NCBI RefSeq assembly: GCF_900184245.1
Contig: NZ_FXXB01000007.1
Coordinates: forward strand, 496,001 to 560,000
Direction of reading: 5' to 3'
Origin: Brachybacterium massiliense
GTDB taxonomy: Bacteria; Actinomycetota; Actinomycetes; Actinomycetales; Dermabacteraceae
DNA length: 64,000 nucleotides
Below the pieces are notes generated by a model. The model saw only the letters and a list, made by a program, of their open reading frames with translations, was not told the DNA's origin and made no database searches. Positions 27,222 to 42,728 of the stretch are shown in pieces (position 1 is the first letter of the stretch; every line of letters starts with the position of its first letter). Made by a program: the position numbers and the translations under genes.

Positions 27222-28106
27222 TCAGAGGATGATCTGGTTCAGCTCGGCCAGGTCCACGTCGCTGAGCTGGAGCGACATCGCCTGCGCGGAGTCGGTGATC
27301 GACTCGGGGCGGCTCGCACCCGGGATCGGGATCACGTGCTCGCCCAGCGCCAGCTCCCAGGCCAGCACCACCTGCTGGGGGCTGACCGCATGCGCCTCGG
27401 CGATCCGCTGGATCTGCGGGAACCGCTCCCCCACCGCGGCCGCCCCGCCGCCGGTGCCGCCCAGCGGCGACCAGGGAACGAAGGCGATGCCGTGCTCGCC
27501 GCAGTGCTCGAGCTCGCGGCGGCTGGTGTGGAAGAACGTCGGCGAGAACTCGTTCTGCACCGCAGCCAGGCCGCCCTCGCCGAGCACCTCGCGAGCCACG
27601 TCGATCTCCTCGACGTTCGCGTTGGAGATGCCGACCTCGCGGATCAGGCCCTCCTGCTGGAAGCCGGCCAGCGCCTCGACCGCGTCGGCATAGCGGATGC
27701 TGCGGTCCGGACGGTGCCAGTAGTAGAGGTCCACCGAGTCCATGCCCAGCGCCGTCAGTGACCTCTCGAGCGCGGAGCGGAGGTAGGCGGCGGAGCCGTC
27801 GCGACCCCCGCCCTCGGCGGAGCGGGTGATGCCGCCCTTGGTCGCGACCACCACCTGCGAGCGGTCCCCGTCCCAGCTGCGCAGCGCCTCGCCCACGAGC
27901 TGCTCGTTGTGGCCCGTGGTGTCCCAGCTGGGGGCGTAGATGTCGGCGGTGTCGAGCAGGGTGATCCCGGCGTCGAGCGCGGCATGGAGGGTGGCCATGG
28001 CGCGGTCATGGGGGGCGGGCTCTCCCCGTCCCATCGACAGCGGCATGGCGCCGAGACCCAGTGCGGAGACGGTCAGGGAGCCGATGCGGCGGGTGGATGC
28101 ACTCAT
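27222..28106 (-). CDS. Aldo/keto reductase
   Basis: The 294-residue protein is a TIM-barrel NADPH-dependent carbonyl reductase. The tetrad is visible: Asp in LLDTADIYAP, Tyr in the same segment, Lys in VVATKGG and His in YYWHRPD. The C-terminal cofactor loop IPIPGASRPESI is present. It starts 31 bp after the LacI gene in the same direction, so it is probably the last gene of the GH172 operon, and a role in handling a released pentose or its oxidised form is plausible. The substrate cannot be read from the sequence. Confidence 0.85.
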   Translation of the reverse strand: MSASTRRIGSLTVSALGLGAMPLSMGRGEPAPHDRAMATLHAALDAGITLLDTADIYAPSWDTTGHNEQLVGEALRSWDGDRSQVVVATKGGITRSAEGGGRDGSAAYLRSALERSLTALGMDSVDLYYWHRPDRSIRYADAVEALAGFQQEGLIREVGISNANVEEIDVAREVLGEGGLAAVQNEFSPTFFHTSRRELEHCGEHGIAFVPWSPLGGTGGGAAAVGERFPQIQRIAEAHAVSPQQVVLAWELALGEHVIPIPGASRPESITDSAQAMSLQLSDVDLAELNQIIL

Positions 28107-28137
28107 GCGGCAAGCGTATGCCCACGCGCGCGGCGCG

Positions 28138-29136
28138 TCAGCCCCTCGGGCGAGTGGATTCGCGTTCGATCAGGCGCGAGCGCAGCAGCGTGGTCGAGGG
28201 CTCCTCATCGGGGTTCGCCATCCGCTGGGCGAGCATCCGGGCCGCGGCGCGGCTGGTGGCGCGCACCGCCTGATGCACCACGGAGACCGACGGGGTGACC
28301 AGGCGGGTCCACAGATCGTCGTCGGTCGCGAGCAGGGCAGGCGCGCCCTGGATCCCGCGCAGCGCCTCGAACGCCCCGGCGGACATCCGGTTGTTGGTGA
28401 CGTAGACGCAGTCCGCCGTGCCGTCGGCCAGCAGCTGCTCCATCAGCGCGCGACCCGATTCGACGTGCAGGTCACCGCGCTGGAGCGCGGCGTCACCGAG
28501 CTCGACCCCGAGCTCGCGCCAGGTGGCGAGGAAGCCGATCGCACGGTCCTCGGTGGTGCGCAGGGTCTGCGGGCCGGCGATCACGGCCGGGGCGCGGAAG
28601 CCCCGCTCGTGCAGGTGGCGCGCGGCCTGCCGGCCGGCATCGAGGTTGTCGGTGGCGACCACGTCGGTGGCCGCGCCGTCGATCCCGCGGTCCACCAGCA
28701 CCACCGGGATCCCGGCATCGGTCAGCGGGCTCAGGTCGGTGCGCAGGCTGTCCACCGGCACCAGCAGCACCCCGGAGACGTGCCGGCTCACCAGCTGGGC
28801 GAAGCAGTCCTGCTCGAGGGCGAGATCGTCCTCGGTGTGCGCGACCGTCACCGAGTGGCTCTGGTCGCGGGCGATCCGCTCCACCTCGCCGATGATCTGG
28901 GTGAAGTAGGGGTTCTCCGCATCGGGCGCGACCACCGCGATCTGGGAGGTGCCGCCGCGGCGCAGGGAGCGGCCCAGGGCGTTGGGCACGTAGCCCGTGG
29001 CCCGGACCGCCGCCTGCACCCGCTTGGACAGCTCCTTGTCGACGGTGGTGGCACCGTTGATGACACGGGAGACAGTCGCCGAGGAGACGCCCGCGGTGCG
29101 CGCGACATCCATGATCGTGGGTCGTGGTGACACCAT
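28138..29136 (-). CDS. LacI-family transcriptional regulator of the GH172 locus
   Basis: The 332-residue protein has the N-terminal LacI helix-turn-helix (TIMDVARTAGVSSATVSRVI, residues 7-26), the hinge helix region NALGRSLRRG, and a periplasmic-binding-protein-like ligand domain (QIAVVAPDAENPYFTQIIGE). It lies third in the operon, 19 bp after the isomerase gene. The near-palindromic GTAATCGATTAC sites at 32151 and 32018, which overlap the start points of both divergent transcripts, are the expected operators. The likely inducer is an imported sugar, which I infer to be pentose-based. Confidence 0.9.
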   Translation of the reverse strand: MVSPRPTIMDVARTAGVSSATVSRVINGATTVDKELSKRVQAAVRATGYVPNALGRSLRRGGTSQIAVVAPDAENPYFTQIIGEVERIARDQSHSVTVAHTEDDLALEQDCFAQLVSRHVSGVLLVPVDSLRTDLSPLTDAGIPVVLVDRGIDGAATDVVATDNLDAGRQAARHLHERGFRAPAVIAGPQTLRTTEDRAIGFLATWRELGVELGDAALQRGDLHVESGRALMEQLLADGTADCVYVTNNRMSAGAFEALRGIQGAPALLATDDDLWTRLVTPSVSVVHQAVRATSRAAARMLAQRMANPDEEPSTTLLRSRLIERESTRPRG

Positions 29137-29155: not shown

Positions 29156-30805
29156 TCAGGATCCGACGATCACCGCATCGCCGCAGAGGTGCACGTTCAC
29201 CCCGAGGTGGTGGAACAGCGCGGCCTTGGCGGTCAGCGCCCGGTCGGCGGAATCGGAGTCGTCAGCGTAGACGAGCTGGGCATGGTTGGCCTTGTGCCGG
29301 CCCATGAACTGGTCACGGCTCACGCCGTGCAGCACCACATGCGCGATCGGCCACTCGGGGTTGGTGGCCTCCTTGCGCCGACGGGTCTCCTCCTCGGGCA
29401 GCTCGACCACGCTGCCGCGGCCGATGTCCACATGCAGCGCCCCCTCCTGCACGTACACGCGGGACCACACGATCTCGCCCGGCTTGGAGACGCCGTTGAT
29501 GGTGGAACCTCCAGCCGGGAAGAACTCCGGCCCCTGACGCCAGCCCTCCGCGTCGGCGTACCCGTTCGGGAAGTGGCTGGGCGGGACCGAGCCGGAGATC
29601 TCGTACACCCACACGTACTGCCCCTCGTACTCCTCGCCCCAGCGCACGTCGTGCAGCGTCGTGGCCGGATCCATCCCCATCGCGTTCCAGACCCGGTGGG
29701 TGACCAAGGCGTCGACCGCGACACCCTCGTCCACCTCGTTGAAGTTCGGCAGCGCCTGCCCCTCCCACAGCACGCGGGAGCCGTCACGGCTGGTCACCGG
29801 CGGGCGCTGGACGTTGTTCAGCAACCCCTCGACGAGGTCCGAGGCGGGGGCGACGTCCTTCATGCCCTGCTGGTACTGGATGCCCACCGCGTCCAGGCCG
29901 AAGTCGTCGCTGATCCGCAGCGCGGCGACGTACATCTTGTACTGCCAACGCAGCTGGGACTCGGTGAGCTCGGTGGCCTCGTCGGTGCCCAGGCGGAAGG
30001 TCATCCCCGCCTCGCGCAGCCAGGCGCCGATCGCGTCGGCCTCCTGGTCGGTGACGGTCTGCATCTCCGCCCACAGCGCGGACTGGCTCAGCCGCTCCTT
30101 GTAGATGCCCAGCGGGTTGAGCATCTCGTCGTCGATGATGGCGTTGTACATGCCCATGCAGCCCTCGTCGAAGATCCCGATGATGGCCTTGTCCTGCCTC
30201 AGCTGATCGGCGAGCGCGCGGCCCAGCTCCACCTCGGGGGTGGTGGGCAGGGCGGGCAGCGGGCGCACATGGCTCGCGTCGTGCTCGAGGCGGCCGGACT
30301 CGATCCAGGTGGCGATGCCGTCCCGGAACCAGGCGTCGGTGCCGTCGACGGTCCACAGCGAGGAGTACTCGCGGTCCATCTTGGTGAGCCCTCCGTTGAG
30401 GTTCAGCAGGCCCACCAGGCCCGGCCATTCGGGGGCGAAGTTCGCGACCGTGAGGATCGGGCCGCGGTGGGTGCGCAGCCCGGCCAGCACGTGATGGCTG
30501 TACTGCCAGTTCGCGGTCGCGACGATCAGCGGCGCGTCGGCCGGGATCTGCGTGAACACCTCGATGCCCATCCGCTGGGAGCGGATGAACCCGTGACCGA
30601 ACTCGGGATCCTCCTCGAAGGCGCGCTGGACGCGCCAGCCGGTCGCGCCGACGGCCTCGCCGACGATCCGCTCGAGCTCCTGCTGATACGGCCAGGCGGG
30701 GACGTTCGCGCTCTCGCGCGAGTCGCCGCTGGGGATGAGGTAGACGGTCTTCTCCGGGGCGGGGATCTCCTCGCGGAGGGCGGGGAGCTGGTACGTGGTG
30801 GTCAT
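29156..30805 (-). CDS. L-fucose/D-arabinose isomerase-like protein
   Basis: The 549-residue protein has the fucose isomerase fold pattern: an N-terminal Rossmann-like half (VYLIPSGDSRESANVPAWPY, then PLIVATANWQYSHH and GPILTVANFAPEWPGLVGLL) and a C-terminal domain with YNAIIDDEMLNPLGIYKERLSQSAL and, at the end, QFMGRHKANHAQLVYAD, whose His is a likely metal ligand. L-fucose isomerases also convert D-arabinose to D-ribulose. With a GH172 enzyme 17 bp upstream, D-arabinose is the best guess. No fuculose or ribulose kinase lies next to it. Confidence 0.75.
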   Translation of the reverse strand: MTTTYQLPALREEIPAPEKTVYLIPSGDSRESANVPAWPYQQELERIVGEAVGATGWRVQRAFEEDPEFGHGFIRSQRMGIEVFTQIPADAPLIVATANWQYSHHVLAGLRTHRGPILTVANFAPEWPGLVGLLNLNGGLTKMDREYSSLWTVDGTDAWFRDGIATWIESGRLEHDASHVRPLPALPTTPEVELGRALADQLRQDKAIIGIFDEGCMGMYNAIIDDEMLNPLGIYKERLSQSALWAEMQTVTDQEADAIGAWLREAGMTFRLGTDEATELTESQLRWQYKMYVAALRISDDFGLDAVGIQYQQGMKDVAPASDLVEGLLNNVQRPPVTSRDGSRVLWEGQALPNFNEVDEGVAVDALVTHRVWNAMGMDPATTLHDVRWGEEYEGQYVWVYEISGSVPPSHFPNGYADAEGWRQGPEFFPAGGSTINGVSKPGEIVWSRVYVQEGALHVDIGRGSVVELPEEETRRRKEATNPEWPIAHVVLHGVSRDQFMGRHKANHAQLVYADDSDSADRALTAKAALFHHLGVNVHLCGDAVIVGS

Positions 30806-30822: not shown

Positions 30823-31956
30823 TCAGCGGCGTGCGGGGCCGGCGGGGCTGTGCGGGCCGGCACCGGCCCCCAGGTGGATCTCCATCGCCTCGAAGCTCGG
30901 CGCCTCGGGCCGGACGGTGACGGGACGGTCGAGGTAGAAGATCGCGGTGGAGGCGATGTCATCGCGCAGCGGCAGGTAGCGCCCGGCGCTCTTCCAGCCG
31001 AGCGCCTGGATGTCCACGCGCGGCAGGCCGGTGGTGAAGTGGATCGGATCGGCCACGTGCCAGCGGTACATCCCGAAACGCTGCTGGGAGATGTACAGCC
31101 CGTCAGGCCGGATCACCTGCGGCATCCCCAGATACGGCGTGGAGAAGGCGGTGTAGCCCTCGCCGGGGACGTCGAAGTTCCAGGCCCCGCCGAAGTAGTC
31201 CTCGGTGCCGGTACCCGCGATGGTGGGGAACTCGCGGTCGTCATCCAGGTAGAACTTGATCTCGCCCTCACCCCACCAGCCGTTGGAGTTCACCCCCCAG
31301 GCGATGTAGGTGCCCACATACTGGCCCTGTCCCTCGACGCCCTCGAGGAGCACGTGCGGGGTGGCCGCCTCCAGCGGGTTCGAGCGGCGCCACTGGGCGT
31401 GGAAGTACGCGTCCTCGCTGTGGTCGCCGCCCAGCTCGTAGGTCACCTGGTAGTAGACGCGCGCGTCCTGATCGGAGGTGTTCTCGAGGGTGAGCACCGC
31501 CCCCTCGCGGAAGGGCATGGGCCAGTAGGAGTTGAAGCCGCCGTGCGGGTTCGCGGCGATCATCTGCGAGTCGACCTGGGCGAACCTCCCCCAGCCGCTC
31601 GCGAAGAAGTCGCCGTAGGGCACCTCGACCGCGGGCTCCTCGGCACCGTCCCAGTAGGCGCGCAGCACCAGCTGGCGCCAGTGATCGGTGTGGGTGGTGA
31701 TCCAGATGTGGGTGATCACGCCGGCGGAGTCGATGTCCGCGAGGGTGAAGGTCTCCCCCGCCTTCACATCGACGCTCGGGGAGACCTTCCAGCCCTGGCC
31801 GAGGTCGCGGGCCGCCTCGGCCCCGGTGCCCTCGGTGGCGCGGCCTCCGCCACCGACGGAGCCGTCGAAGTTCTCGGGGCTGATGGAGCGGGTCTGCACC
31901 GCTCGCAGGCTGGCGAGCGAGGAATGGGCACGGGGTGAGCAGGCAGAACGGGTCAC
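30823..31956 (-). CDS. GH172 (DUF2961) glycoside hydrolase
   Basis: The 377-residue protein has the DUF2961 double jelly-roll pattern: SISPENFDGSVGGGGRA, IWITTHTDHWRQLVLRAYWD, VPYGDFFASGWG, FNSYWPMPFREGAVL and the GTGTEDYFGGAWNF segment with the conserved Glu252. Characterised members act on D-arabinofuranosides of mycobacterial arabinan or on D-fructofuranosides (difructose anhydride). No signal peptide is present, so it works on imported oligosaccharides. It is the first gene of the operon and uses a GTG start with GGGAG upstream. Its promoter and operator are at 32018-32062. Confidence 0.85.
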   Translation of the reverse strand: MTRSACSPRAHSSLASLRAVQTRSISPENFDGSVGGGGRATEGTGAEAARDLGQGWKVSPSVDVKAGETFTLADIDSAGVITHIWITTHTDHWRQLVLRAYWDGAEEPAVEVPYGDFFASGWGRFAQVDSQMIAANPHGGFNSYWPMPFREGAVLTLENTSDQDARVYYQVTYELGGDHSEDAYFHAQWRRSNPLEAATPHVLLEGVEGQGQYVGTYIAWGVNSNGWWGEGEIKFYLDDDREFPTIAGTGTEDYFGGAWNFDVPGEGYTAFSTPYLGMPQVIRPDGLYISQQRFGMYRWHVADPIHFTTGLPRVDIQALGWKSAGRYLPLRDDIASTAIFYLDRPVTVRPEAPSFEAMEIHLGAGAGPHSPAGPARR

Positions 31957-32017: not shown

Positions 32018-32062
32018 GCAAACGATTACTGGGACCATACGGAACCGCCCGCGGCCCGTCAA
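32018..32062 (-). promoter_or_regulatory. Promoter and LacI-type operator of the GH172 operon
   Basis: On the minus strand TTGACG (32062-32057), a 17-bp spacer and TATGGT (32039-32034) form a strong promoter. The site GCAAACGATTAC (32018-32029, plus strand) overlaps the expected start point and matches the palindrome GTAATCGATTAC in 10 of 12 positions, so a bound LacI protein would block initiation. Confidence 0.7.
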
Positions 32063-32116: not shown

Positions 32117-32162
32117 TTGACACCCGTCCACGCCGGGGCTACCTTGGCGCGTAATCGATTAC
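32117..32162 (+). promoter_or_regulatory. Promoter and perfect palindromic operator of the ABC importer operon
   Basis: TTGACA (32117-32122), a 17-bp spacer and TACCTT (32140-32145) form the promoter. The perfect 12-bp palindrome GTAATCGATTAC (32151-32162) sits on the expected start point. CpG-centred palindromes of this type are typical LacI/GalR-family operators. Confidence 0.8.
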
Positions 32163-32274
32163 CAGGAGCGGCACACGGACGTGCCGAGCCTCGAGCTCCC
32201 GCTCGACATGCGCAGCGACGCCCACTGCGCGAGCACCACACACCGCGAGATCCCCGATGACGAGGAGAAGCATC

Positions 32275-33630
32275 ATGAAGCGCAGGAGTTTCCTCTCCGC
32301 AGCAGCCGCCACCACCGGAATGGCCGGTCTCGCCGCATGCGGCAGCGGCACCCCCGGACAGCGGGCCGACGACCCCGCGGCCGAGGGCCGCACCACCGTC
32401 GAGTTCTGGGGCAACGTCTTCACCACCCCGGAGAACGCCTGGTACGAGAAGATCGTCGAGGACTTCAACGCCTCGCAGGAGGACGTCTTCATCAACTACC
32501 AGGTGGTCCCCGGTGACGCCTGGGACCAGAAGCTCAAGGCCGCCCAGGCCGCGGGCAACGCCCCCGACATCTACATCCAGGCCGGCCGGCTCGACACCGC
32601 CGCCCGCACCGGCACCCTGATGGCGCTGGATGATCTGTTCGATGCGGAGGTGCTCGGCTCCGTCACCGACATCGCCAAGGAGGTCAGCCAGTACCAGGGT
32701 GCCTTCTACGCCTTCCCGCTGCTGGTCGAGCCCCAGATGACGCTCTACTGGAACCGGGACCTGTTCGAGCAGGCCGGACTGGATCCGGACTCCCCGCCGC
32801 AGTCCTGGGAGCAGATGTACGACGCCTGCGAGGCCCTCTCCGGCGTAATGGGCAACGGCGAGTTCGCCCTGAACACCGCCGTGGACTCCGGCACCTTCGG
32901 GTGGACCACCGTGGCCGCGCAGCAGCATGTGGCCGGCCACCTGCCGATCTCCGAGGACTGGGCCACCGCGGACGCCGAGGACCCCGCCTACGAGGAGCTC
33001 ATCACCTTCTACAAGACCCTGCAGGACAACGGCTGGATCCCGCGCCAGCCCCTGGGCGCCGGCAACTCCGCCCAGGCCTTCGGCGAGGGCAAGGTCGCGA
33101 TGATGTCGCAGGGCTCCTGGGGCATGTCCGAGATCGCCGCCGACTACCCCGACATGGTCGCGGTGACCGGGGTGGCGCCGTGGGTGCAGTCCGACGGCGA
33201 CATGTCGCACTCGATCTCCACGATCGGCAACATGAAGTGGGTGATGGACGCGAAGGCGAAGGAGCCCGAGGCCGCGGCGTCGTTCATCAGCTGGGCGCTC
33301 GGCGGCGAACCCGAGGTGCTCACCCCCTTCTTCGTCGACACCCAGTTCACCAAGGCACCCGCACGGGACGAGGTGACCGAGGTGGTCAACTCCGACCCCG
33401 CCGCCGCGGATGCCCCGTGGTCCGACGTCGTGTTCAACGACGTGGTCCCCTTCTGCATCCCCGAGGCCCAGTACCCCTGGGACGTGAACATGGCGATGGG
33501 CGATGCGATCCAGGCCGGGATGCTCGGCGAGAAGAGCCCCGCCGAGGCGCTGGCCGACGCGAACGCCGAGATCCAGAAGGTGATCGACCGCGAGGACCTC
33601 GCCTCGGTGCGTGCCGAGATGGACGCCTGA
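32275..33630 (+). CDS. Sugar ABC transporter, lipoprotein substrate-binding protein (CUT1)
   Basis: The 451-residue protein begins MKRRSFLSAAAATTGMAGLA followed by AC, which combines a twin-arginine-like motif (RRSFL) with a lipobox (LAAC), so it is exported and lipid-anchored. The body is a family 1 solute-binding protein (VEFWGNVFTTPENAWYEKIV, LYWNRDLFEQAGLDPDSPP, QAFGEGKVAMMSQGSWG). It delivers an oligosaccharide to the two permeases that follow. The start is set by GAGGAG before ATG 32275. The usual CUT1 ATPase (MsiK-like) is not encoded here and is probably shared. Confidence 0.9.
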   Translation: MKRRSFLSAAAATTGMAGLAACGSGTPGQRADDPAAEGRTTVEFWGNVFTTPENAWYEKIVEDFNASQEDVFINYQVVPGDAWDQKLKAAQAAGNAPDIYIQAGRLDTAARTGTLMALDDLFDAEVLGSVTDIAKEVSQYQGAFYAFPLLVEPQMTLYWNRDLFEQAGLDPDSPPQSWEQMYDACEALSGVMGNGEFALNTAVDSGTFGWTTVAAQQHVAGHLPISEDWATADAEDPAYEELITFYKTLQDNGWIPRQPLGAGNSAQAFGEGKVAMMSQGSWGMSEIAADYPDMVAVTGVAPWVQSDGDMSHSISTIGNMKWVMDAKAKEPEAAASFISWALGGEPEVLTPFFVDTQFTKAPARDEVTEVVNSDPAAADAPWSDVVFNDVVPFCIPEAQYPWDVNMAMGDAIQAGMLGEKSPAEALADANAEIQKVIDREDLASVRAEMDA

Positions 33631-33656
33631 GCCGGAGACGACCGGGAAGGAGAGGG

Positions 33657-34580
33657 ATGAGCATCAACGCTCCCACCGCCGGTGGGCGCCGGCGCACCGT
33701 GCACCCCAGCCGCCGCCGGGACACCTCGATGGCGTACATCATGCTGGCGCCGGTGCTCGTGCTGCTGAGCATCTTCGTCATCTGGCCCGCGATCCAGGCG
33801 GTGTTCCTGAGCTTCTACGACTGGAGCTTCTACACCGAGTCCGAGTTCGTGGGATGGAAGAACTTCCGCAACGTGCTCGTGGACCCCAGTTTCTGGGAGG
33901 CCGTGGTGCGGGGCCTGCAGTTCGTGCTGATGACGGTGCCGTTCAGCCTCGTGCTCTCCTTCCTGGTCGCGACGCTGGCCACCTCGGTCTCCCGCCGGGT
34001 CTCCTCGGTGCTGAAGGTCAGCATCTACATCCCCTCGGTGATCTCGGGCGTGATCGCCTCGATCACCTTCGTGATCATCTACGACTACTCCGGCGGCCTG
34101 CTCAACGCCCTGATCAACCTCTTCGGGGCGCCGAACCAGGCCTGGCTCGGCGATCCGCGCTGGGCCCTCGGTGCGATCGCTGTGCCGGCCGTCTGGCTCG
34201 GGATGGGCATCACCACGCTGATCATGATCGCAGCGATGCTCGACATCCCCGAGAGCCTCTACGAGGCGGCCGAGCTCGAGGGCGCCAACTGGTGGCAGCG
34301 CACCCGCTTCATCACCATCCCGCAGATGAAGAACGTGCTGCTGTTCCTGCTGGTGACCGGATTCGTCGGCTCGATCCAGCAGTACGAGCTGCCGCTGGTG
34401 ATGACCGGCGGCGGGCCGAACTCCGCCACCGAGCTGCCGAACCTCTTCATCTTCAACCACTTCCGCGGAGACGCCTACGTGGGCTACTCGATCGCCGCCG
34501 CGCTGCTGCTGTTCGTGGTGCTGGGCTCGATCTCCTCGGTCATCTTCCGCATCGTCAACTCCGAGAAGCTGGTGGACTGA
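33657..34580 (+). CDS. Sugar ABC transporter permease, MalF-like
   Basis: The 307-residue protein has six membrane helices and the EAA loop EAAELEGANWWQRTRFITIP (residues about 202-221), which docks the ATPase. SMAYIMLAPVLVLLSIFVIWP is the typical first helix of CUT1 permeases. It lies 26 bp after the binding-protein gene and its stop is one base before the second permease, so the three genes are one operon. AAGGAGAGGG precedes the ATG. Confidence 0.9.
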   Translation: MSINAPTAGGRRRTVHPSRRRDTSMAYIMLAPVLVLLSIFVIWPAIQAVFLSFYDWSFYTESEFVGWKNFRNVLVDPSFWEAVVRGLQFVLMTVPFSLVLSFLVATLATSVSRRVSSVLKVSIYIPSVISGVIASITFVIIYDYSGGLLNALINLFGAPNQAWLGDPRWALGAIAVPAVWLGMGITTLIMIAAMLDIPESLYEAAELEGANWWQRTRFITIPQMKNVLLFLLVTGFVGSIQQYELPLVMTGGGPNSATELPNLFIFNHFRGDAYVGYSIAAALLLFVVLGSISSVIFRIVNSEKLVD

Positions 34581-34581
34581 G

Positions 34582-35499
34582 ATGGCCATCGCCGTGGACC
34601 CACGCCCCCGCACTCCCCTGGGCGGCACCGAGGACGCCGCCTCGCTGCGCCGCCGCGCCCGTCGGCGTCGGATCCTCCATCCGATGCAACTGCTGCGGTT
34701 CCTGGTCAAGGCGTTCTTCAGCCTGCTGATCGTGTTCCTGGCGCTGTTCCCGCTGGCCTGGATGATCATCTCCGGGTTCAAGATCCGCACCGAGGTGGTC
34801 TCCACCCCGTTCCAGTTCTTCCCCGAGGTCTGGCAGTGGCAGAACTACGTGCAGATCCTCGCGGACACCGCGTTCCTGCGCACGCTGCTGATCACCGGTG
34901 GCGGCGCGGTGGTGTTCACCGCCGGCTCGATCGCCGTGAACTCGATGGCGGCCTACGCCTTCGCCCGGCTCGAGTTCGCGGGCAAGAGGTTCGTGTGGCC
35001 GCTGGTGCTGATGACCATGTTCATCCCCGGCATGACGATCCTGCTGACCAGCTTCATCGTGGTCACCAACCTGCGGATGCTGGACACCCTCGCGGTGCTG
35101 ATCATCCCCGGCATGGCCGCGGCCGGGCACATCTTCTTCGTGCGCCAGTTCTACCTGAACATCCCCTCGAGCCTCGAGGAGGCCGCGGTGATGGACGGCT
35201 GCGGGAGGTGGGGCGTGTACCTGCGGATCTTCCTGCCGCTGTCGAAGGCGCCGTTCGTGGTCGTGGGGATCACCAGCTTCATGGCCTACTGGAACAACTT
35301 CGTCTGGCCGGTCATGACGATCACCAGCCCCGAGCTGTACCAGGTGCAGCAGTATCTCGCCGCGTTCCGCGGCGAGCGCTCCTCGGAGCTGGGGCTGCTG
35401 ATGGCGGGGTCGGCCTGCGCCGCGCTGCCGATCATCATCATCTTCCTCATCTTCCAGCGCCAGATCATCGCGAACATCAAGATGGCCGGGCTGAAGTAG
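34582..35499 (+). CDS. Sugar ABC transporter permease, MalG-like
   Basis: The 305-residue protein has six membrane helices and the EAA loop EEAAVMDGCGRWGVYLRIFL (about residues 197-216). The strongly basic N-terminal segment RRRARRRRILHP stays in the cytoplasm. It completes the CUT1 importer pair. No ATPase gene follows; the next gene is an exported DUF4185 protein 129 bp downstream. Confidence 0.9.
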   Translation: MAIAVDPRPRTPLGGTEDAASLRRRARRRRILHPMQLLRFLVKAFFSLLIVFLALFPLAWMIISGFKIRTEVVSTPFQFFPEVWQWQNYVQILADTAFLRTLLITGGGAVVFTAGSIAVNSMAAYAFARLEFAGKRFVWPLVLMTMFIPGMTILLTSFIVVTNLRMLDTLAVLIIPGMAAAGHIFFVRQFYLNIPSSLEEAAVMDGCGRWGVYLRIFLPLSKAPFVVVGITSFMAYWNNFVWPVMTITSPELYQVQQYLAAFRGERSSELGLLMAGSACAALPIIIIFLIFQRQIIANIKMAGLK

Positions 35500-35628: not shown

Positions 35629-36747
35629 ATGGCCGATCATCACCGCAGCGAGCACTCCCCCGCGGGCCTGAGCCGCGGCGCGTTCCTCCGCCTGGGCGGG
35701 ATCACCGCCGCGGCCACCGGTCTGGGCATGGCGGGGACGCAGCTGGGCCCGCTCGCGGCGCCGGCGTCGGCCGCTCCGAGCGTGACCCGCATGGGCGAGG
35801 TGACCGGTCCCGGCATCACCAGCGACTGGGGCGTGACCTCGACGGATCTGGGCATCCCGGCGCGCACGCCCGACGGTCGGATCCTCGCGATCTTCGGGGA
35901 CACCTGGTCGGAGCAGGGCGTGGGCAACGGCGACTGGCGCTCGCCCGTCGGCCTGTACGCGGATCCGCAGCGACCGCTCGCCGAGGGGATCGCGTGGACC
36001 GGCGCCGTGGGCGGCGACTACGCCCACCAGCTGGTGCCCTACGCGCACGATTCGAACCCGGTCTCCACCATCCTGCCCAGCGACGTCATCACCCTCGGGG
36101 ACACGATGTACCTGTGGGTGATGGTCAACCACGGCTTCGGCAACGTCGCCTCCACCGAGATCTGGACCTCGAAGGACTCCGGTGAGAGCTGGCAGCGCGG
36201 CGGCACCATGTTCGACGGCGCCCACGCCGGCGGCCTGATGCAGCAGGCCACCTGGACCTACAACCATGACGACGACCACGTGTACGTGCTGACCACCGGC
36301 TTCCAGCGCGACAAGCCGATCATCCTGCATCGCGTGTTCGGCGGTGCGATCACCGACCCGGCCGCCTACGAGCCGTGGGGCTTCGCGAACGGTGCCTGGG
36401 GGTGGGGCAACCCGGCCACGCCCGTGCTCGAGGGCTCCTTCGGCGAGATGTGCTGGCGGATCATCGACGGCACCTGGGTGCTGTCCTGGTTCAACGCGGG
36501 CGAGGGCACCGTGGACGTGCTGCTGCACGACGGCCCCACCGCGAACCTCCACACCGCCACCCGGCACCAGGTGCTGCACAACGCCCCGTGGGGCGGGGAA
36601 TCGGAGACCGGGGTCTCCCAGCTGTACGGGGGCTACATCGTGCCCGGCTCGACCCTGGACGACCTCCACCTGCTGGTCAGCCAGTGGAACACGGGGACCG
36701 GCTGGCCCTACTGGACCCAGCAGTTCCGGGTGCGGGGCCTGGCCTGA
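35629..36747 (+). CDS. Exported DUF4185 protein (GH183, endo-D-arabinanase family)
   Basis: The 372-residue protein has an export signal with a Tat-like core SRGAFLRLGGITAAA, a hydrophobic stretch and an AXA site (PASAAPS) near residue 50. The mature part is a five-bladed propeller of DUF4185 type: GDTWSEQG, WRSPVGLYADP, VSTILPSDVITLGD, MVNHGFGNVASTEIWTSKDS, YVLTTGFQRDK, EGSFGEMCWRI. DUF4185 proteins from arabinan-degrading bacteria and mycobacteria are endo-D-arabinofuranases (family GH183). It follows the ABC importer and would produce the oligosaccharides to be imported. ATG 35629 has AGGAGG upstream. Confidence 0.8.
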   Translation: MADHHRSEHSPAGLSRGAFLRLGGITAAATGLGMAGTQLGPLAAPASAAPSVTRMGEVTGPGITSDWGVTSTDLGIPARTPDGRILAIFGDTWSEQGVGNGDWRSPVGLYADPQRPLAEGIAWTGAVGGDYAHQLVPYAHDSNPVSTILPSDVITLGDTMYLWVMVNHGFGNVASTEIWTSKDSGESWQRGGTMFDGAHAGGLMQQATWTYNHDDDHVYVLTTGFQRDKPIILHRVFGGAITDPAAYEPWGFANGAWGWGNPATPVLEGSFGEMCWRIIDGTWVLSWFNAGEGTVDVLLHDGPTANLHTATRHQVLHNAPWGGESETGVSQLYGGYIVPGSTLDDLHLLVSQWNTGTGWPYWTQQFRVRGLA

Positions 36748-36751: not shown

Positions 36752-37159
36752 TCAGAGCCGGAGGATCCCGGCGGTGGTGCGCCGGAACAGTCCCTCGGCC
36801 ATGTAGAAGGCGCCGAGGTCCGTCTCGAAGTCGACGTGGAGCCACTCCACCTCGAGCGCGCGGCACTCCTCGATCGCGTGCAGCACCAGGGAGCGGCCGA
36901 TGCCGGTGCCCTGGTGCTCGGGGTGGACCATCACGTCGAGCAGGAAGGCGTGGCGTCCGCCGTCGGTGATGACGTTGCAGAACCCCACCAGCGACTCGCC
37001 GCGGCGCGCCACGACCCAGCCCAGCGAGTACCGCTCGAGCCGCTGCGACCAGGGCTCGAGCGCATCGTCTCCGACGAACGCGGCGGAGTGCAGCGCGGAG
37101 AGCTCCTGGTCGTCGATCTCCTCGCGCCAGGCGAAGCGGAGCTGCGATGGCTCATCCAT
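36752..37159 (-). CDS. GNAT-family N-acetyltransferase
   Basis: The 135-residue protein has the GNAT acetyl-CoA loop in LLDVMVHPEHQGTGIGRSLV (about residues 70-89) and a final strand with FYMAEGLF. It is a short single-domain member of unknown substrate. It converges on the DUF4185 gene with a 4-bp gap and is probably not part of the sugar pathway. Confidence 0.8.
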   Translation of the reverse strand: MDEPSQLRFAWREEIDDQELSALHSAAFVGDDALEPWSQRLERYSLGWVVARRGESLVGFCNVITDGGRHAFLLDVMVHPEHQGTGIGRSLVLHAIEECRALEVEWLHVDFETDLGAFYMAEGLFRRTTAGILRL

Positions 37160-37219: not shown

Positions 37220-38074
37220 TCAGCGGCCGGGCAGCACCTTCAGCTCACGGATGGTGAGCCCGCCGCGGCCCCAGCCACCTCCGGTGATCCAGGTGCGCCC
37301 GCCCTCGGTGACGATCTCGGCGCAGTGCTCATCGAGGTCCACGTCGATCTGCCCGGAGTCCTCGAAGCGCCGCGGATCGGTCGAGAAATAGGCCAGGGTG
37401 CGGTCGTACTGCGTGGATTCGCAGACGAACAGGATCCAGCCTTCGCGGGTGCGCACCACGAACGGCGACTCGGTGGGCCCGCCATAGGTACCCCTCTCAC
37501 GCGAGCGGTAGGCGACCTCGGGCTCGGACCAGGTCAGCAGGTCCTCGCTGGTGCGCACCGCGACCTCGTGGTGTCCGCCGTCGGGCGCGGAGGTGCGGGT
37601 GTAGTACATCAACCAGCAGCGCCCGTCATGGATCACCATCGGGTCACGCGCATCGAAGCCGTCCTCGAACAGGACCTGCTCCTGCGGCGTCCAGTCGAAG
37701 AGGTCCTCGCTGGTCGCGAGCGTCATCCGGTAGGCGGTGTGATCGGCGGTGCCGCCCGCGTAGAACATCCAGTAGCGATCCTCGTGATGGATCACGTGCG
37801 GGGCCCACACATGGGTCTCGCCACGCTCGGTGCGGGCGTGGAGGATCGAGTCGTGGACGGTCCATGGCGCGCCCTCGAGATCGTCGGCGGAGGCGTGGAG
37901 GAACATCGTCTCCTCGAGCGGCGCGGCCGGTTCGGGATGCCAGATCCCGAACACGTGCCAGCGCCCGTCCCGGTCGCGGATCAGGGTGTGGTCGTTGATG
38001 TACCAGGGCTCCTGGGCCGACGGCGAGGCGTCGAGCAGGCGGCGCTTCTCGCCGGGGATCAGTTGAACGGTCAC
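37220..38074 (-). CDS. GH43-like five-bladed propeller glycosidase
   Basis: The 284-residue protein has the pattern of the GH32/43/117/130 superfamily: YINDHTLIRDRDGRWHVFGI (possible base Asp), WAPHVIHHEDRYWMFYAGG, DARDPMVIHDGRCWLMYYT (Asp that positions substrate) and TESPFVVRTREGWILFVCES (possible acid Glu). There is no signal peptide, so it acts on intracellular sugar. The exact family is not settled by eye. GTG 38074 is preceded by GAGGAG. An operator-like site lies at 38103-38114, which links it to the LacI regulon. Confidence 0.75.
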   Translation of the reverse strand: MTVQLIPGEKRRLLDASPSAQEPWYINDHTLIRDRDGRWHVFGIWHPEPAAPLEETMFLHASADDLEGAPWTVHDSILHARTERGETHVWAPHVIHHEDRYWMFYAGGTADHTAYRMTLATSEDLFDWTPQEQVLFEDGFDARDPMVIHDGRCWLMYYTRTSAPDGGHHEVAVRTSEDLLTWSEPEVAYRSRERGTYGGPTESPFVVRTREGWILFVCESTQYDRTLAYFSTDPRRFEDSGQIDVDLDEHCAEIVTEGGRTWITGGGWGRGGLTIRELKVLPGR

Positions 38075-38102: not shown

Positions 38103-38133
38103 GAGAACGATTACTCGCCCTCGTGCCACCGTA
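38103..38133 (-). promoter_or_regulatory. Operator-like site and -10 box of the GH43-like gene
   Basis: GTAATCGTTCTC on the minus strand (38114-38103) matches the 32151 palindrome in 9 of 12 positions. TACGGT (38133-38128) is a reasonable -10 box and places the site a few bases after the start point. The -35 box is not clear. Confidence 0.5.
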
Positions 38134-38172: not shown

Positions 38173-38739
38173 TCAGCGCACCGGGCGTGCGAGCAGCGCG
38201 ACGGAGAAGAACACCGCCGCCTGCCCCTCGTGGGCGCGGTAGCGGTAGGTCTCGTCAGTCGCGAGGCGGCCGGAGCCGCCGGCCTCGATGAGGCGCGTCC
38301 CGTCGGCCGTCTCCACCTCGAGCGCACCCTCGAGCACATGGTGCATGAGCTCGGGCATCGGCACGCCTCCGCCACCCTCATAGACATCCTCGCCCAGGAG
38401 CTTCCACTTCCAGGTCTCGACGGAGAGCGCCGGGGTGTCCGCTGCGTCCAGCAGCACCGCCCAGCTGCCGGAGTCGGTGGACCAGACCTCCACGCCTTCG
38501 GGCGGCCCGTCGGCCCCCACGCCCATCAGGGCGGCGAAGGTGGTGCCGAGCCCGGCGGCGACGCGGTCCAGCGTCGCGACGGAAGGGTTCGCCTGGCCGA
38601 GCTCGATCTGGGTGAGCATGCGACGGCTGACCTCGCTGAGCTCCGCGAGGCCGCCGACGGAGAGGTCCAGCTCCTGGCGGGCGGCGCGGATCCGGTGACC
38701 GAGCTGCTCGACCACCGCAGGCCGCATCCCTCCGCTCAT
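38173..38739 (-). CDS. XRE-family regulator with cupin domain
   Basis: The 188-residue protein has an N-terminal XRE helix-turn-helix (LGHRIRAARQELDLSVGGLA, then SRRMLTQIELGQANPSV) and a C-terminal cupin (MPELMHHVLEGALEVETADGTRLIEAGG). Such proteins repress neighbouring genes in response to a small molecule. ATG 38739 with GGAGG five bases before it is chosen over an upstream start at 38790. It is divergent from the MFS gene and the shared region carries an inverted repeat at the MFS promoter. Confidence 0.85.
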   Translation of the reverse strand: MSGGMRPAVVEQLGHRIRAARQELDLSVGGLAELSEVSRRMLTQIELGQANPSVATLDRVAAGLGTTFAALMGVGADGPPEGVEVWSTDSGSWAVLLDAADTPALSVETWKWKLLGEDVYEGGGGVPMPELMHHVLEGALEVETADGTRLIEAGGSGRLATDETYRYRAHEGQAAVFFSVALLARPVR

Positions 38740-38778
38740 GAGCGCCTCCTCGACCTGTTCCGATGGGGTGACGGGAAC

Positions 38779-38816
38779 TATATTGCACATCGCCCAGGGT
38801 GCGCATTATGTTGCGC
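38779..38816 (+). promoter_or_regulatory. Divergent XRE/MFS promoter with inverted repeat
   Basis: For the MFS gene TTGCAC (38783-38788), 18 bp and TATGTT (38807-38812) form a promoter. The dyad GCGCA (38801-38805) and TGCGC (38812-38816) straddles the -10 box. A minus-strand TATAGT (38782-38777) could serve the XRE gene. The dyad is a likely XRE operator. Confidence 0.5.
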
Positions 38817-38863
38817 AGAGGCGCTGTCGCCCCTGTTCACCCCCACGTCGAAGGAGGTCCTCC

Positions 38864-40114
38864 ATGGCCGGCACCACCGTCCACGCCCCCGCGCCGCAGT
38901 CCGTCGCCCGGTCCCCGCGAGGGCCCCTGCTGCGCTGGTACGTCTCCTACGGCTCCTTCGCGGTGCCGCAGGCTGCGGCACCGATCGCCTTCTCGCTGAT
39001 CGCACTGCCGCTGACCGGCGATGCCGCCAGCGGCGCGGCGATGATGCTCGCGATGACGATCGCGCAGGTGGTGGGCGCCGTGCCGATCACGCGCCTGGGT
39101 GCGCGCTTCTCCCCCATCCCCTTCCTGCGGGCGCTGATCGGTCTGCGCACCCTGGCACTGGTGGGCATCGCGGTGCTCGCCGCCGTGCACGCGCCGTTCC
39201 CGCTGGTGGTCGTCGGCGCCGCGCTCGCAGGGCTGGTCAACGGCGCCGCCTACGGCATGCTCCGCGCGGCGCTGAACCATCTGGTGCCCGCCAGCCGGCT
39301 GCCCCGCTCCCTCGGTGTCGCGGCGACGCTGAACGAGGTCACCTTCGTCTCCGCCCCCGTGATCGCGGCGGCGCTGGGGAGCATCTCCCCGCAGGCCGCG
39401 GCGTGGGCGATGGCGATCCTGGGCATGGGCCCGATGCTCCTGCTGCCGCGCATCCCCACCGCCACGGCGACCGGTCCCGCGCAGCGCGGATCACGCCTGA
39501 AGCTCACGCCGATGATCGTGCTGTGGCTGGTGTGCGGCGGGGCCAGCGCCGCCTCGATCGCCGCGATCGAGATCGGCGCGGTCTCGATGGCGGTCTCCTT
39601 CGGGATGCCGGCGGCCTGGGGCGTGCTGTTCCCCGTCGCGATCTGCGTGACCTCGATCCTCGGCGGGATCTGGGTGAGCGTGCGCAACCGCGTGCCGCGC
39701 CGCCGCACGGTGCTCGGCTGGCTCGCGGTCACCGCTCTCGGCGTGGCCGCGGTGGGCTTCGGCAGCTCGGTGACCGCCACCGTGATCGGCGCCCTGCTGG
39801 TCGGGGCGGTGCTCGCTCCGCTGGCCACCTACTACTCGCTGGTGCTGGACCGGCTGGTGGCGCCCGAGCACCGGGCCGAGGTGTTCGCGCAGCTGCGCAC
39901 CGCGAACGCGCTGGGGATCATCACCTCGAGCGCTCTGCTGTCCCTGGCCACGCTGCAGGTCACCTTCGCGGTGGTGATCGGCGTGATGGCCGCGGTGCTG
40001 GTGGTGACGGGCCTGGTGTTCACCAGCGCATGGGTCAACGCCCGTCGTCGCCGGCTGGCGCGGGAGGCCGCCGAGCAGCGGGCGCAGGAGGCGCTGGCAC
40101 CGGCGCGCCAGTAA
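38864..40114 (+). CDS. MFS transporter
   Basis: The 416-residue protein has about twelve hydrophobic helices with short loops and a basic central loop, as in major facilitator drug or sugar exporters. AAGGAGG precedes the ATG. The paired XRE-cupin regulator suggests induction by an exported compound. The stop lies inside the region that begins the next promoter (40111-40147). No substrate-specific motif is visible. Confidence 0.8.
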   Translation: MAGTTVHAPAPQSVARSPRGPLLRWYVSYGSFAVPQAAAPIAFSLIALPLTGDAASGAAMMLAMTIAQVVGAVPITRLGARFSPIPFLRALIGLRTLALVGIAVLAAVHAPFPLVVVGAALAGLVNGAAYGMLRAALNHLVPASRLPRSLGVAATLNEVTFVSAPVIAAALGSISPQAAAWAMAILGMGPMLLLPRIPTATATGPAQRGSRLKLTPMIVLWLVCGGASAASIAAIEIGAVSMAVSFGMPAAWGVLFPVAICVTSILGGIWVSVRNRVPRRRTVLGWLAVTALGVAAVGFGSSVTATVIGALLVGAVLAPLATYYSLVLDRLVAPEHRAEVFAQLRTANALGIITSSALLSLATLQVTFAVVIGVMAAVLVVTGLVFTSAWVNARRRRLAREAAEQRAQEALAPARQ

Positions 40115-40147
40115 ACGATTGCTCGCGGGCCGGGGCTCCCGTAGGGT
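40111..40147 (+). promoter_or_regulatory. Promoter with operator-like site for the second DUF4185 gene
   Basis: TTGCTC (40119-40124), 17 bp and TAGGGT (40142-40147) form the promoter. GTAAACGATTGC (40111-40122) matches the palindrome at 32151 in 10 of 12 positions and overlaps the -35 box. Confidence 0.6.
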
Positions 40148-40182: not shown

Positions 40183-41322
40183 ATGACCCGTTCCCGTTTC
40201 CTGCGCGGCGCAGCCGCCCTCACCGGTGCCGGCGTGCTCGGCACGGCCTCCGGCTGCACTCCTGAGGAGCCGGGAGGCTCCCCCGCCCCCGAGGAGGCCA
40301 CCTCGCAGGGGCCTGATTTCGGGCCCATCCCTGAGGACGCCTGCCCGCGCGTGGAGCGAATGGCGCCGATCACCGGCCCAGGGATCACCACCCGGTTCCG
40401 GATGGAGGCCACCGACCTCGGCGCCCCGGCCCTCACGCCCGACGGCCGGATCCTGTTCATCTTCGGCGACACCTTCGAGGAGGCCGTGGTGGGCGGCGGG
40501 TTCTGGCGCTCCCCCGTCGGCCTCTACGCGGACCCGGAGGTGCCGCTCGACGACGGGATCCGCTGGACCGGGGCGGTGGGCGGCGAGACCGCCGAGCAGC
40601 TGGTGCCCTACGAGCACGACGACGCCCCGGTCTCCACGATCCTGCCGGGTGATGTGCTCACCCTCGGGGACACCATGTATGTGTGGGTGATGGTCAACCA
40701 CGGCTTCGGCAACGTCGCCTCCACGGAGATCTGGACCTCGGCCGATTCCGGCGAGAGCTGGGAGCGCACCGCCGAGATGTTCCCCGGCGACCATCTCGAC
40801 GGGTTCATGCAGCAGTGCACCTGGTGCGCCCATCCCACCGACGGGTACGTCTATGTGCTGACCACCGGGTTTCAGCGCGACAAGGGCGTGATCCTCTCCC
40901 GGGTGCCCACGCAGTCCCTGCTCGATCCGGGCGCCTACGAGGTCTTCAGCGGCGGCGGCAGCTGGGGCGGGGAGCCGCTGACCGTGCTCGAGGGCTCGAT
41001 CGGCGAGATGTGCCTGCGGATCGTGGACGGCACCTGGGTACTGACCTACTTCGACGCCGGGAACTACCGGGCGGACATTCTCGCCGCAGACTCTCCCGAG
41101 CAGCTCGCGGACGCCCGGCCCCGCACCCTGCTGCACGGCGGGGAGTGGGGGAACGAGGCGCACGACGTGGTCGCCCAGCTGTACGGGCTCTACATCGTGC
41201 CCGGCTCGACCCTCGAGGTGATGCACCTGGTGTGCTCGCAGTGGCACACCGGCCCGGACTGGCCGTACCACGTCGAGCAGTTCCGGATCGAGGATCCGCT
41301 GGGCCGCGGCTGCGTGGACTGA
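40183..41322 (+). CDS. Exported DUF4185 lipoprotein (GH183-like), second copy
   Basis: The 379-residue protein begins MTRSRFLRGAAALTGAGVLG, then TASGC, a lipoprotein signal with lipobox ASGC and a Tat-like RSRFLRG core. The propeller is close to the first DUF4185 protein over its whole length (GDTFEEAVVGGGFWRSPVGL, VSTILPGDVLTLGDTMY, MVNHGFGNVASTEIWTSADS, VLTTGFQRDKG, EGSIGEMCLRI). Anchoring to the membrane, as opposed to release of the other copy, suggests a division of work. GTG 40180 immediately before is an alternative start. The operator-like site in its promoter ties it to the same regulon. Confidence 0.8.
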   Translation: MTRSRFLRGAAALTGAGVLGTASGCTPEEPGGSPAPEEATSQGPDFGPIPEDACPRVERMAPITGPGITTRFRMEATDLGAPALTPDGRILFIFGDTFEEAVVGGGFWRSPVGLYADPEVPLDDGIRWTGAVGGETAEQLVPYEHDDAPVSTILPGDVLTLGDTMYVWVMVNHGFGNVASTEIWTSADSGESWERTAEMFPGDHLDGFMQQCTWCAHPTDGYVYVLTTGFQRDKGVILSRVPTQSLLDPGAYEVFSGGGSWGGEPLTVLEGSIGEMCLRIVDGTWVLTYFDAGNYRADILAADSPEQLADARPRTLLHGGEWGNEAHDVVAQLYGLYIVPGSTLEVMHLVCSQWHTGPDWPYHVEQFRIEDPLGRGCVD

Positions 41323-41351
41323 GCCGGGGCGGGCGCAGACGGCTCTGCTGC

Positions 41352-42728
41352 TCAGTAGCGTCGGTAGCGCTGGGTGGTGGCGCGGAAGCGCTGGGACTCC
41401 TTGCGCCAGGCGGCGACGATCGCCTCCGGGCTGTCGCCGCCCTCGAGCATCAGGCGGGTGCGCTTGGTGCCGGTGAGCTTGTCGACCCAGCACTCGTCGG
41501 CCTCCGTGCGGCAGTCCTCGCCCTCGCGCCAGTCGACCTCCTCGACGTTCCGCAGCAGCGCGGCGAGCACATGGATGCCCGTGCGCACCGGCTCGTACTC
41601 CTGGGCGTCGGTGACGTGGATCTGCAGGCCGCCGCAGAACTCGCCGGCGTGCTTGGAGGTGGTGGGGGTGGCGAACATCGGCCGGTAGAGCACGCCCGGG
41701 AGGTCCGCGGCCTCCAGCTCGGCGATCAGGGTGTCCACATGGGCCTCGGTGATGAACGGGGCCCCGAACCACAGGAACGGCGTGGTGGTGCCGCGGCCCT
41801 CGGAGATGTTCAGCGACTCGATCATGCCGGTGCCGGCGTACACCAGCGCGGTCTCCGCGGAGGGGATGTTCGGGGAGGGCAGCACCCATGGCAGCTCCGC
41901 CTCGAGCGGCTCCTCGGGGTCGTAGCCGCTCATCTCGATCACCTCGAGAGCGGTGGCGCCGTCGAGGAACTCGCCGTTGAACAGCAGCGCCAGCTCGCCG
42001 ACGGTGAGGCCGTGGGTCTGCGGGATCTCGCGCAGCCCCACGAAGGAGGACAGCTCCGGCTCGAGCACGAAGCCCTCGATGTCCGTGCCCAGCGGATTCG
42101 GGCGGTCCAGCACGATGAACCGCTTGTCGTTCTCACCGGCAGCTTGCATTGCGTAGTACAGCGTCCAGATGTAGGTGTAGAAGCGGGTGCCGATGTCCTG
42201 GATGTCGAAGACCAGCACGTCGACGTCCTCGAGCATCTCCGGGGTGGGCTTCTGGGTGGCGCCGTACAGCGAGCGCACGGGCAGGCCCGTCTTCTCGTCG
42301 ATGTAGTCCACGACCGAGCCGCCGGCCGGTTCCGCGCCGCGCACCCCGTGCTCGGGACCGAACAGCGCGGTCATCGTGAAGCCGCCCTGCTCCTGCGCCT
42401 CGACCAGCAGATCGATCGTGGAGCGCAGGGAGCTGTCGGTGCCGGTGGGATTGGTGATCAGGCCGACGCGCGCATCGCGCAGCGTCTCCAGCGCCTCCTC
42501 CTCGAGCAGGTTCTCGACGCCGAGACGGAATCCGCCGCGACCCTTCCCCCTGCCCTTGCCGCGGCCCTTGCCCTTGCCTCTGCCGCCCGGGGCGGCGTGC
42601 GCGGCGCCGGCACCGGCGAGCACCGCTCCGGCGGGGAGGGCGCCGAGCGAGGCGAGCACCCGGCGGCGGGCGGGCCGGCTCCCCTCGTCCTCGTTCTGCT
42701 CCGTGCGTCTGGGTGCTGCCTGGTTCAC
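41352..42728 (-). CDS. namZ: NamZ-type exo-beta-N-acetylmuramidase (DUF1343, GH171), exported
   Basis: The 458-residue protein starts at GTG 42728 with GGAGG upstream. It has a Tat signal (RRRVLASLGALPAGAVLAGA, AHAAPG), then a Gly-Lys/Gly-Arg linker, then the DUF1343 domain: VGLITNPTGTDSSLRSTIDL, ALFGPEHGVRG, LPVRSLYGATQKPTPEML, FDIQDIGTRFYTYIWTLYYA, SLNISEGRGTTTPF. Characterised members remove terminal MurNAc from peptidoglycan fragments. It is convergent with the second DUF4185 gene, which puts a muramidase beside predicted arabinan-cutting enzymes. The symbol is assigned by family. Confidence 0.85.
   Translation of the reverse strand: MNQAAPRRTEQNEDEGSRPARRRVLASLGALPAGAVLAGAGAAHAAPGGRGKGKGRGKGRGKGRGGFRLGVENLLEEEALETLRDARVGLITNPTGTDSSLRSTIDLLVEAQEQGGFTMTALFGPEHGVRGAEPAGGSVVDYIDEKTGLPVRSLYGATQKPTPEMLEDVDVLVFDIQDIGTRFYTYIWTLYYAMQAAGENDKRFIVLDRPNPLGTDIEGFVLEPELSSFVGLREIPQTHGLTVGELALLFNGEFLDGATALEVIEMSGYDPEEPLEAELPWVLPSPNIPSAETALVYAGTGMIESLNISEGRGTTTPFLWFGAPFITEAHVDTLIAELEAADLPGVLYRPMFATPTTSKHAGEFCGGLQIHVTDAQEYEPVRTGIHVLAALLRNVEEVDWREGEDCRTEADECWVDKLTGTKRTRLMLEGGDSPEAIVAAWRKESQRFRATTQRYRRY

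Follow-up and report, generated by a model that had tools for sequence, protein, structure and literature searches.

We examined a 64,000-nucleotide stretch of Brachybacterium massiliense (contig NZ_FXXB01000007.1, positions 496,001 to 560,000; hereafter the window, 72% G+C, from a genome of 3.87 Mb) that carries a gene group whose core very probably acts on D-arabinan. Two GH183 (DUF4185) proteins, a GH172 enzyme, an ABC importer and an L-fucose/D-arabinose isomerase-like protein lie together, the combination that defines the core of actinobacterial D-arabinan polysaccharide utilization loci (PULs), and judged by its gene content the locus is a GH116-less variant of that type. In our full model, a 284-amino acid protein of the same group that we call GH32L acts as an exo-β-D-arabinofuranosidase in place of GH116, a proposal we regard as finely balanced and leaning slightly to the doubtful side. 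The core itself is not new. A sequence-only reading of this stretch had taken the gene set to be undescribed, which is largely wrong, as Shimokawa et al. 2023 (PMC10509167) describe it for Microbacterium arabinogalactanolyticum and mention similar clusters in Cellulomonas and other Actinobacteria. Besides four GH183 genes, the Microbacterium locus holds one GH172 and one GH116 gene, those of an ABC importer, and downstream enzymes. In the presence of D-arabinose and of mycobacterial wall extract, clear induction is seen for its GH183, GH116 and binding-protein genes and a milder one for GH172 (PMC10509167). The β-linked ends of D-arabinan need an exo-β-enzyme, in Microbacterium the GH116 protein ExoMA2. 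Our searches found no paper joining Brachybacterium and D-arabinan, and the genus may still figure among the related clusters of that article.

GH172 is one of the core enzymes that point to D-arabinan as the substrate. It aligns without gaps over residues 12–376 to the exo-α-D-arabinofuranosidase in PDB entry 8ic8 (705.8 bits, E 1.5e-211) and matches the fructose-anhydride enzyme αFFase1 (7v1v) at 118.2 bits only. We equate entry 8ic8 with ExoMA1 because of its molecule name and because its residue numbering fits PMC10509167, where Asn253 of ExoMA1 is described as blocking fructofuranose and αFFase1 has Gly299 at that position. Asn260 of the window protein corresponds to Asn253, and Asn stands at this fructose-excluding position in all 94 homologous frames of at least 60% identity among the fetched loci, some genomes being counted repeatedly. 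Both GH183 proteins lie above the DUF4185 cut-off of 39.5 bits (229.7 for GH183a and 217.3 for GH183b). In EndoMA1 two Asp and one Glu (D33, D51, E243) are essential, and the GH183 enzymes assayed in PMC10509167 and PMC10115798 are endo-D-arabinanases. GH183a retains the triad as D73/D91/E273 in an alignment to the endo-α-D-arabinanase 8hhv and also aligns to 8an0. For GH183b, which matches 8an0 at E 9.6e-27, 8hhv was not among the matches and the triad (D78/D96/E275) was placed by motif only. Read by eye, the GH183 proteins begin with Tat- and lipobox-like sequences, as does the solute-binding protein of the importer, and GH172 and GH32L have no signal-like start.

The isomerase (549 residues) gave an AlphaFold model with a mean pLDDT of 86, whose top Foldseek matches were 1fui, 4c20 and 3a9r, with E 8e-21 for the L-fucose isomerase 1fui and 2e-20 for the Bacillus D-arabinose isomerase 3a9r. 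It resembles these enzymes in fold and in its C-terminal Pfam domain; it differs from the solved L-fucose/D-arabinose isomerases in sequence (14–16% identity, TM about 0.5, high rmsd), and a phmmer search of PDB sequences gave no match at E 0.1. Taken together, a GH172 close to ExoMA1 with its Asn, the GH183 residues, the isomerase fold, the importer and a shared operator fit the D-arabinan substrate first proposed from the sequence. The proposed order of outer cutting, import and inner trimming also agrees with the Microbacterium model (PMC10509167). Fructan or plant arabinan, left as possible substrates by the earlier reading, are disfavoured as far as the core is concerned by this same set of observations.

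GH32L, previously described as GH43-like, scores above the curated Pfam cut-offs of both GH32N (PF00251, 50.4 bits against 22.1) and GH43 (PF04616, 42.8 bits against 32.2, a partial match over 73–222). N27-D28, R143-D144-P145 and E202 are invariant in 15 GH32L sequences of the genus, and six divergent homologues (Nakamurella, two; other genomes, four) keep them as well. Judged by motif and by the span of the Pfam match, D28 would fit the role of nucleophile or base, D144 that of the transition-state residue and E202 that of the acid/base. The GH32L model had GH130, GH32 and GH43 propellers as its top Foldseek matches, at 12–19% identity in the ten best. D-arabinofuranose lacks only the C1 hydroxymethyl group of D-fructofuranose, so a GH32-type enzyme could adapt to β-D-arabinofuranose much as GH172 covers both α-D-fructofuranose and α-D-arabinofuranose. 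The settings of some homologues tie GH32L to arabinan enzymes or to the cell wall. Both Nakamurella proteins examined fuse a DUF2961 (GH172-type) domain to a GH32L domain (L245:6385-11406 and L246:6563-11548), and their genes adjoin a sugar ABC importer of the ribose (CUT2) type. In two of the four other homologue genomes, G572 and G760, which belong to the same genus, the homologue is exported and its gene has those of an SLT lysozyme and an M23 peptidase as neighbours (L288:6716-11832 and L289:8689-13904). FG-GAP-like repeats occur in all three proteins, those of the L288 homologue scoring below the Pfam cut-off, and this neighbourhood is possibly a wall-lysis set. Several relatives carry, beside GH32L, a gene of the enolase superfamily (MR_MLE_C) that may encode a sugar-acid dehydratase (e.g., L223:6744-7844), and none was seen in the window locus.

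Within the genus, GH116 (PF04685) had no match in the B. massiliense genome and was found in one of 38 genomes (own included), G053, where it lies away from the locus. GH172 of at least 77% identity occurs in 21 of the 38 (a further match, in G045, is at 48%) and GH183 in 17, all of them within those 21, which excludes a chance association. GH32L was counted in 19 genomes at 67% identity or more over the best segment, leaving out a 19-bit match in G045. It is present in 17/17 GH183-positive genomes versus 2/21 GH183-negative ones (Fisher p about 1e-8, not corrected for phylogeny). Because the genes of the locus move together and the p value takes no account of phylogeny, this co-occurrence shows GH32L to be a member of the locus and does not show its function. 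GH172 without GH32L was seen in G057 and G051, both of which also lack GH183, and the GH172 match of G051 holds a stop. In six Brachybacterium genomes (L231, L234, L235, L238, L241 and L242), GH32L has a GH172 paralogue of about 50% identity as its neighbour; in a seventh (L226), the two are within 5 kb of each other.

For other genera, the best 80 of 592 GH172-homologue loci were kept, and 33 genomes were taken from them (L003-L032, L035, L036 and L041). GH116 is found in 26 of these 33 and GH32L above 25 bits in five, three of Brachybacterium type and two of Nakamurella, with six further genomes matching GH32L at 25 bits or less. G019 and G020 have neither enzyme, and neither an isomerase nor a GH183 is seen in the stretches fetched from them. 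The comparison set consisted of 17 non-Brachybacterium loci with a GH172 of at least 74% identity, an isomerase and LacI (the isomerase of L010 is cut by a contig end); GH116 is present in 16 of them, each time inside the fetched locus, and GH32L above 25 bits in none of the 17 genomes, searched whole. The GH32L family is rare outside the genus. Its profile matched only L004 within the best 80 loci and nothing on plasmids, and searches that scored five candidates per listed genome, where misses are possible, found it in 13 of 396 genomes of the order at E 1e-15 (12 of the same genus, one other) and in 4 of 394 of the class at E 1e-30, own genome included.

The locus also shares an operator-like sequence. 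The pattern GNRAWCGATTRC, written after the sites in Table 1 had been seen, occurs at four places in the window (five strand matches), all in the locus, versus a mean of 0.10 in shuffles. A slightly wider pattern has 12 places genome-wide, 4 of them within this 8 kb, and the reversed control has none. The eight places outside the locus include a LacI gene and a GH42-like/solute-binding protein pair (GH42 by eye only), and no kinase was recognized beside them among neighbours read without a Pfam scan. Independent support comes from the genus loci L220-L244, where 49 sites have at most two mismatches to the palindrome with the CG core required; five order-1 randomizations gave 1–5. The 17 non-Brachybacterium loci have 61, mostly GAAATCGATTTC or a close variant, versus 0–5 in random sequence. 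Many of these 49 and 61 sites adjoin LacI, GH172, solute-binding protein and GH183 genes, as judged by eye, and G058 has a perfect site 75 bp ahead of its GH32L gene.

Under the full model, the two exported GH183 enzymes would act outside the cell, cutting the arabinogalactan or lipoarabinomannan of bacteria with mycolic acids, and the CUT1 importer would take up the resulting oligosaccharides. In the cytosol, GH172 would trim terminal α-D-arabinofuranose, and GH32L, replacing GH116, would remove terminal β-D-arabinofuranose caps that would otherwise block GH172. The fucose-isomerase-type protein would turn D-arabinose into D-ribulose, which a kinase encoded elsewhere may pass to the pentose phosphate pathway. 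A LacI-family repressor, presumably the one encoded in the locus, would act on GTAAWCGATTRC-type operators to control GH172, the importer, one GH183 and GH32L jointly. Of this scheme, the analysis shows the protein families, the catalytic residues, the distribution and the operator sites; the substrates, the activity of GH32L, the identity of the binding LacI protein and the kinase step are inferred.

Several observations weigh against this model. We know of no activity for GH32L or a close homologue, and its best solved relatives, all distant, act on many sugars (mannan phosphorylases, GH43 and GH32 enzymes). Its structure model, built from two sequences, reached a pLDDT of 62 and a pTM of 0.62 in the best of five, with the others at 37–45. 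The homologues in G758 and G221 have no wall-enzyme neighbours among those scanned, and G221 has no GH172 or GH183 match within 20 kb of its homologue. GH32L also occurs without a GH183 match in G043 and G065 (the latter 84% complete). The complementarity of GH116 and GH32L is strong but imperfect and confounded with genus: Promicromonospora panici (G017) and Streptomyces G033 have neither enzyme genome-wide, both Nakamurella genomes carry both, and neither is found in the locus stretches of six further Streptomyces loci with GH172 and an isomerase (L050, L054, L055, L058, L070 and L077), which slightly lowered our estimates of the full model and of the broader proposal given below. The GH172 paralogue has Ala at the fructose-excluding position in all seven fetched genus stretches having it, so that a fructose-type substrate is possible there. 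On the regulatory side, the operator before GH32L (GAGAACGATTAC) is the weakest of the four, with three mismatches to the palindrome, and a site with up to three mismatches within 350 bp was found for only 8 of 19 GH32L genes, three of these (G038, G042 and G056) being shared with a divergent GH183; for three more, a site precedes the GH172 paralogue leading into GH32L. Outside the window, a similar operator at G000 C1:402729-402740 is found about 85 bp ahead of a different LacI gene, to which it probably belongs; the regulon therefore cannot be defined by the motif alone.

The kinase step also counts against the model. FGGY_N, the only kinase family searched, had no match inside the window, and no kinase was recognized in the locus. 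FGGY matches were found at eight places elsewhere in the genome, the nearest of them about 2.2 kb beyond the end of the window. By NCBIfam, one is a glycerol kinase and two are xylulokinases with identical scores above the cut-off, the other five fall below every cut-off, and no D-ribulose kinase could be assigned among the eight. The two xylulokinase genes (G000 C4:21650-22315 and C4:24920-25585) have opposite orientations and are separated by about 3 kb, an arrangement that resembles an inverted duplication.

It is possible, if on balance unlikely, that the D-arabinan core holds and GH32L removes another wall sugar, such as β-D-galactofuranose, or a lipoarabinomannan cap, with the β-caps staying in place or being removed by an enzyme outside the locus. 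The Nakamurella genomes with both enzymes and the several GH172-isomerase loci with neither would suit this explanation, and a GH43_31 enzyme and another family are galactofuranosidases on the galactan of arabinogalactan (PMC10115798). However, a galactofuranosidase role leaves the mutual exclusion of GH116 and GH32L unexplained. The segment WYINDHTL of GH32L also resembles, unaligned, what we take to be the GH32 nucleophile motif, WMNDPNG, a further point against it.

A locus for fructans or difructose anhydrides, with GH172 as an α-fructofuranosidase and GH32L as a β-fructofuranosidase, has some attraction, as the first GH172 enzyme is a difructose dianhydride enzyme (7v1v), GH32L matches GH32N, and in some genomes GH32L has as its neighbour the GH172 paralogue whose key residue is Ala. 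We nevertheless reject it for the core because of Asn260 and the GH183 pair, and consider it very improbable overall: ExoMA1 outscores αFFase1 as a match to the window GH172 by the wide difference given above, the GH183 enzymes assayed in the two papers named above are endo-D-arabinanases, and the isomerase fits D-arabinose and not fructose. Hardly any weight falls on the idea that these enzymes remodel the cell's own envelope instead of feeding on neighbours. Mycobacteria have GH183 enzymes of their own that cleave arabinogalactan or lipoarabinomannan (PMC10115798), but here the importer, the isomerase and LacI suggest catabolism, and the absence of GH172, GH32L and GH183 from 17, 19 and 21 of the 38 genus genomes, respectively, would be odd for wall maintenance. 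Arabinogalactan synthesis is not known from Brachybacterium.

Table 1. Features of the predicted D-arabinan locus, in window coordinates.
Feature	Position	Strand	Evidence
Aldo/keto reductase, accessory, last gene of the leftward LacI group	27222..28106	-	PF00248 207.9 bits
LacI-family regulator, proposed D-arabinan repressor	28138..29136	-	PF00356 and Peripla_BP
L-fucose/D-arabinose isomerase-like protein	29156..30805	-	PF02952 37.9 bits, cut-off 29.3
GH172, putative exo-α-D-arabinofuranosidase, cytosolic by eye	30823..31956	-	8ic8 705.8 bits; Asn260
Operator GCAAACGATTAC, GH172/solute-binding protein divergent promoter region	32018..32029	+	pattern match
Perfect palindromic LacI-type operator GTAATCGATTAC, between GH172 and importer	32151..32162	.	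pattern match
CUT1 solute-binding protein (SBP_bac_8)	32257..33630	+	PF13416 113.3 bits
CUT1 permease 1	33627..34580	+	PF00528 54.8 bits
CUT1 permease 2	34582..35499	+	PF00528 47.6 bits
GH183a (DUF4185), putative endo-D-arabinanase, exported by eye	35629..36747	+	PF13810 229.7 bits; D73, D91, E273
GNAT acetyltransferase, downstream of GH32L	36752..37159	-	PF00583
GH32L (GH43-like open reading frame), cytosolic by eye, proposed exo-β-D-arabinofuranosidase	37220..38074	-	PF00251 50.4, PF04616 42.8 bits; D28, D144, E202
Operator GAGAACGATTAC, 28 bp before GH32L start	38103..38114	+	pattern match
XRE-family regulator	38173..38790	-	PF01381 40.8 bits
MFS transporter, true start probably downstream of the open reading frame start	38738..40114	+	PF07690 69 bits
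Operator GTAAACGATTGC, before GH183b	40111..40122	.	pattern match
GH183b (DUF4185), putative endo-D-arabinanase, exported, possible lipoprotein by eye	40183..41322	+	PF13810 217.3 bits; D78, D96, E275
NamZ exo-muramidase (GH171), accessory, Tat-type start by eye	41352..43199	-	PF07075 262.6, PF20732 155.1 bits

Each protein named in the sequence-only reading is above its curated Pfam cut-off: the aldo/keto reductase, LacI, Fucose_iso_C, DUF2961, SBP_bac_8, two BPD_transp_1 and two DUF4185 proteins, and likewise the GH32N/GH43, HTH_3 (XRE) and NamZ_N/NamZ_C proteins. Two gene starts did not stand. The second GH183 is present as claimed and begins near 40183, not 38230, and NamZ proper begins well inside its open reading frame, with the family domain from residue 245. 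A codon-position gene caller chose some wrong frames, and its long open reading frames without a Pfam match were left uninterpreted. The aldo/keto reductase adjoins LacI in several genus loci, LacI genes adjoin GH172 in Microbacterium-type loci too, and in several genus loci the GNAT gene adjoins GH32L and the XRE regulator lies near an MFS gene. The proteins of the locus that were scanned did not include an ATPase for the importer. NamZ had been listed together with the other genes, but a place in the core is not supported: among the fetched genus stretches, G043 and G068 are the only ones apart from the window where it adjoins the locus, and we treat it as accessory. A formylglycine-generating (FGE-sulfatase-type) gene at 42922-43887 overlaps the start of the long NamZ reading frame, and in G068 the GH183 genes are flanked by NamZ and FGE genes. 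The label "mycolate-type" is unsupported: mycolate utilization was considered and rejected, as no mycolate enzyme was seen among the Pfam-scanned window proteins, where an α/β hydrolase at 44061-45683 is generic and outside the gene group.

We also tentatively put forward, as rather less than an even bet, a broader proposal in which GH32L would found a new exo-β-D-arabinofuranosidase group of the GH32/GH43 superfamily that replaces GH116 in Brachybacterium, and in which the exported homologues (the Nakamurella fusions and those of G572/G760) would breach the walls of mycolic-acid bacteria. If true, both D-arabinofuranose anomers would, with GH172, be cut by fructofuranosidase-related enzymes. 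In a title-level literature search, GH116 ExoMA2 was the sole characterized exo-β-D-arabinofuranosidase family met for mycobacterial arabinan, the name also being used elsewhere (fungal GH39). Ethambutol blocks the synthesis of the arabinan of lipoarabinomannan and arabinogalactan, and a second, structurally unrelated exo-β-D-arabinofuranosidase family would be a new tool to dissect both polymers. It would further hint at one more genus feeding on mycolic-acid bacteria or scavenging from them. The predicted operator makes the regulon directly testable.

Compared with known systems, GH32L is like the β-propeller glycosidases of GH32, GH43 and GH130 in its Pfam scores and Foldseek matches, and unlike GH32 it has no room for a C-terminal β-sandwich, as the Pfam match and the model fill its 284 amino acids with propeller-type strands. 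The Dysgonomonas gadei PUL (DgGH172 and DgGH4185; PMC10115798) shares the GH172 and GH183 chemistry on mycobacterial arabinogalactan, and differs in belonging to Bacteroidota; a putative GH116 gene in it is noted in PMC10509167, and "GH32" is not mentioned in the main text of PMC10115798. The closest known system is the M. arabinogalactanolyticum PUL (EndoMA1/2, ExoMA1 and ExoMA2), with its GH183 set, GH172, SBP_bac_8-type ABC importer and isomerase; relatives of GH183a at 47–48% identity occur in three Microbacterium loci, with adjoining permease genes in two (L006 and L007). In contrast to that PUL, Brachybacterium shows no GH116 match genome-wide and no recognized kinase in its locus, and has GH32L in the gene group, with NamZ adjoining.

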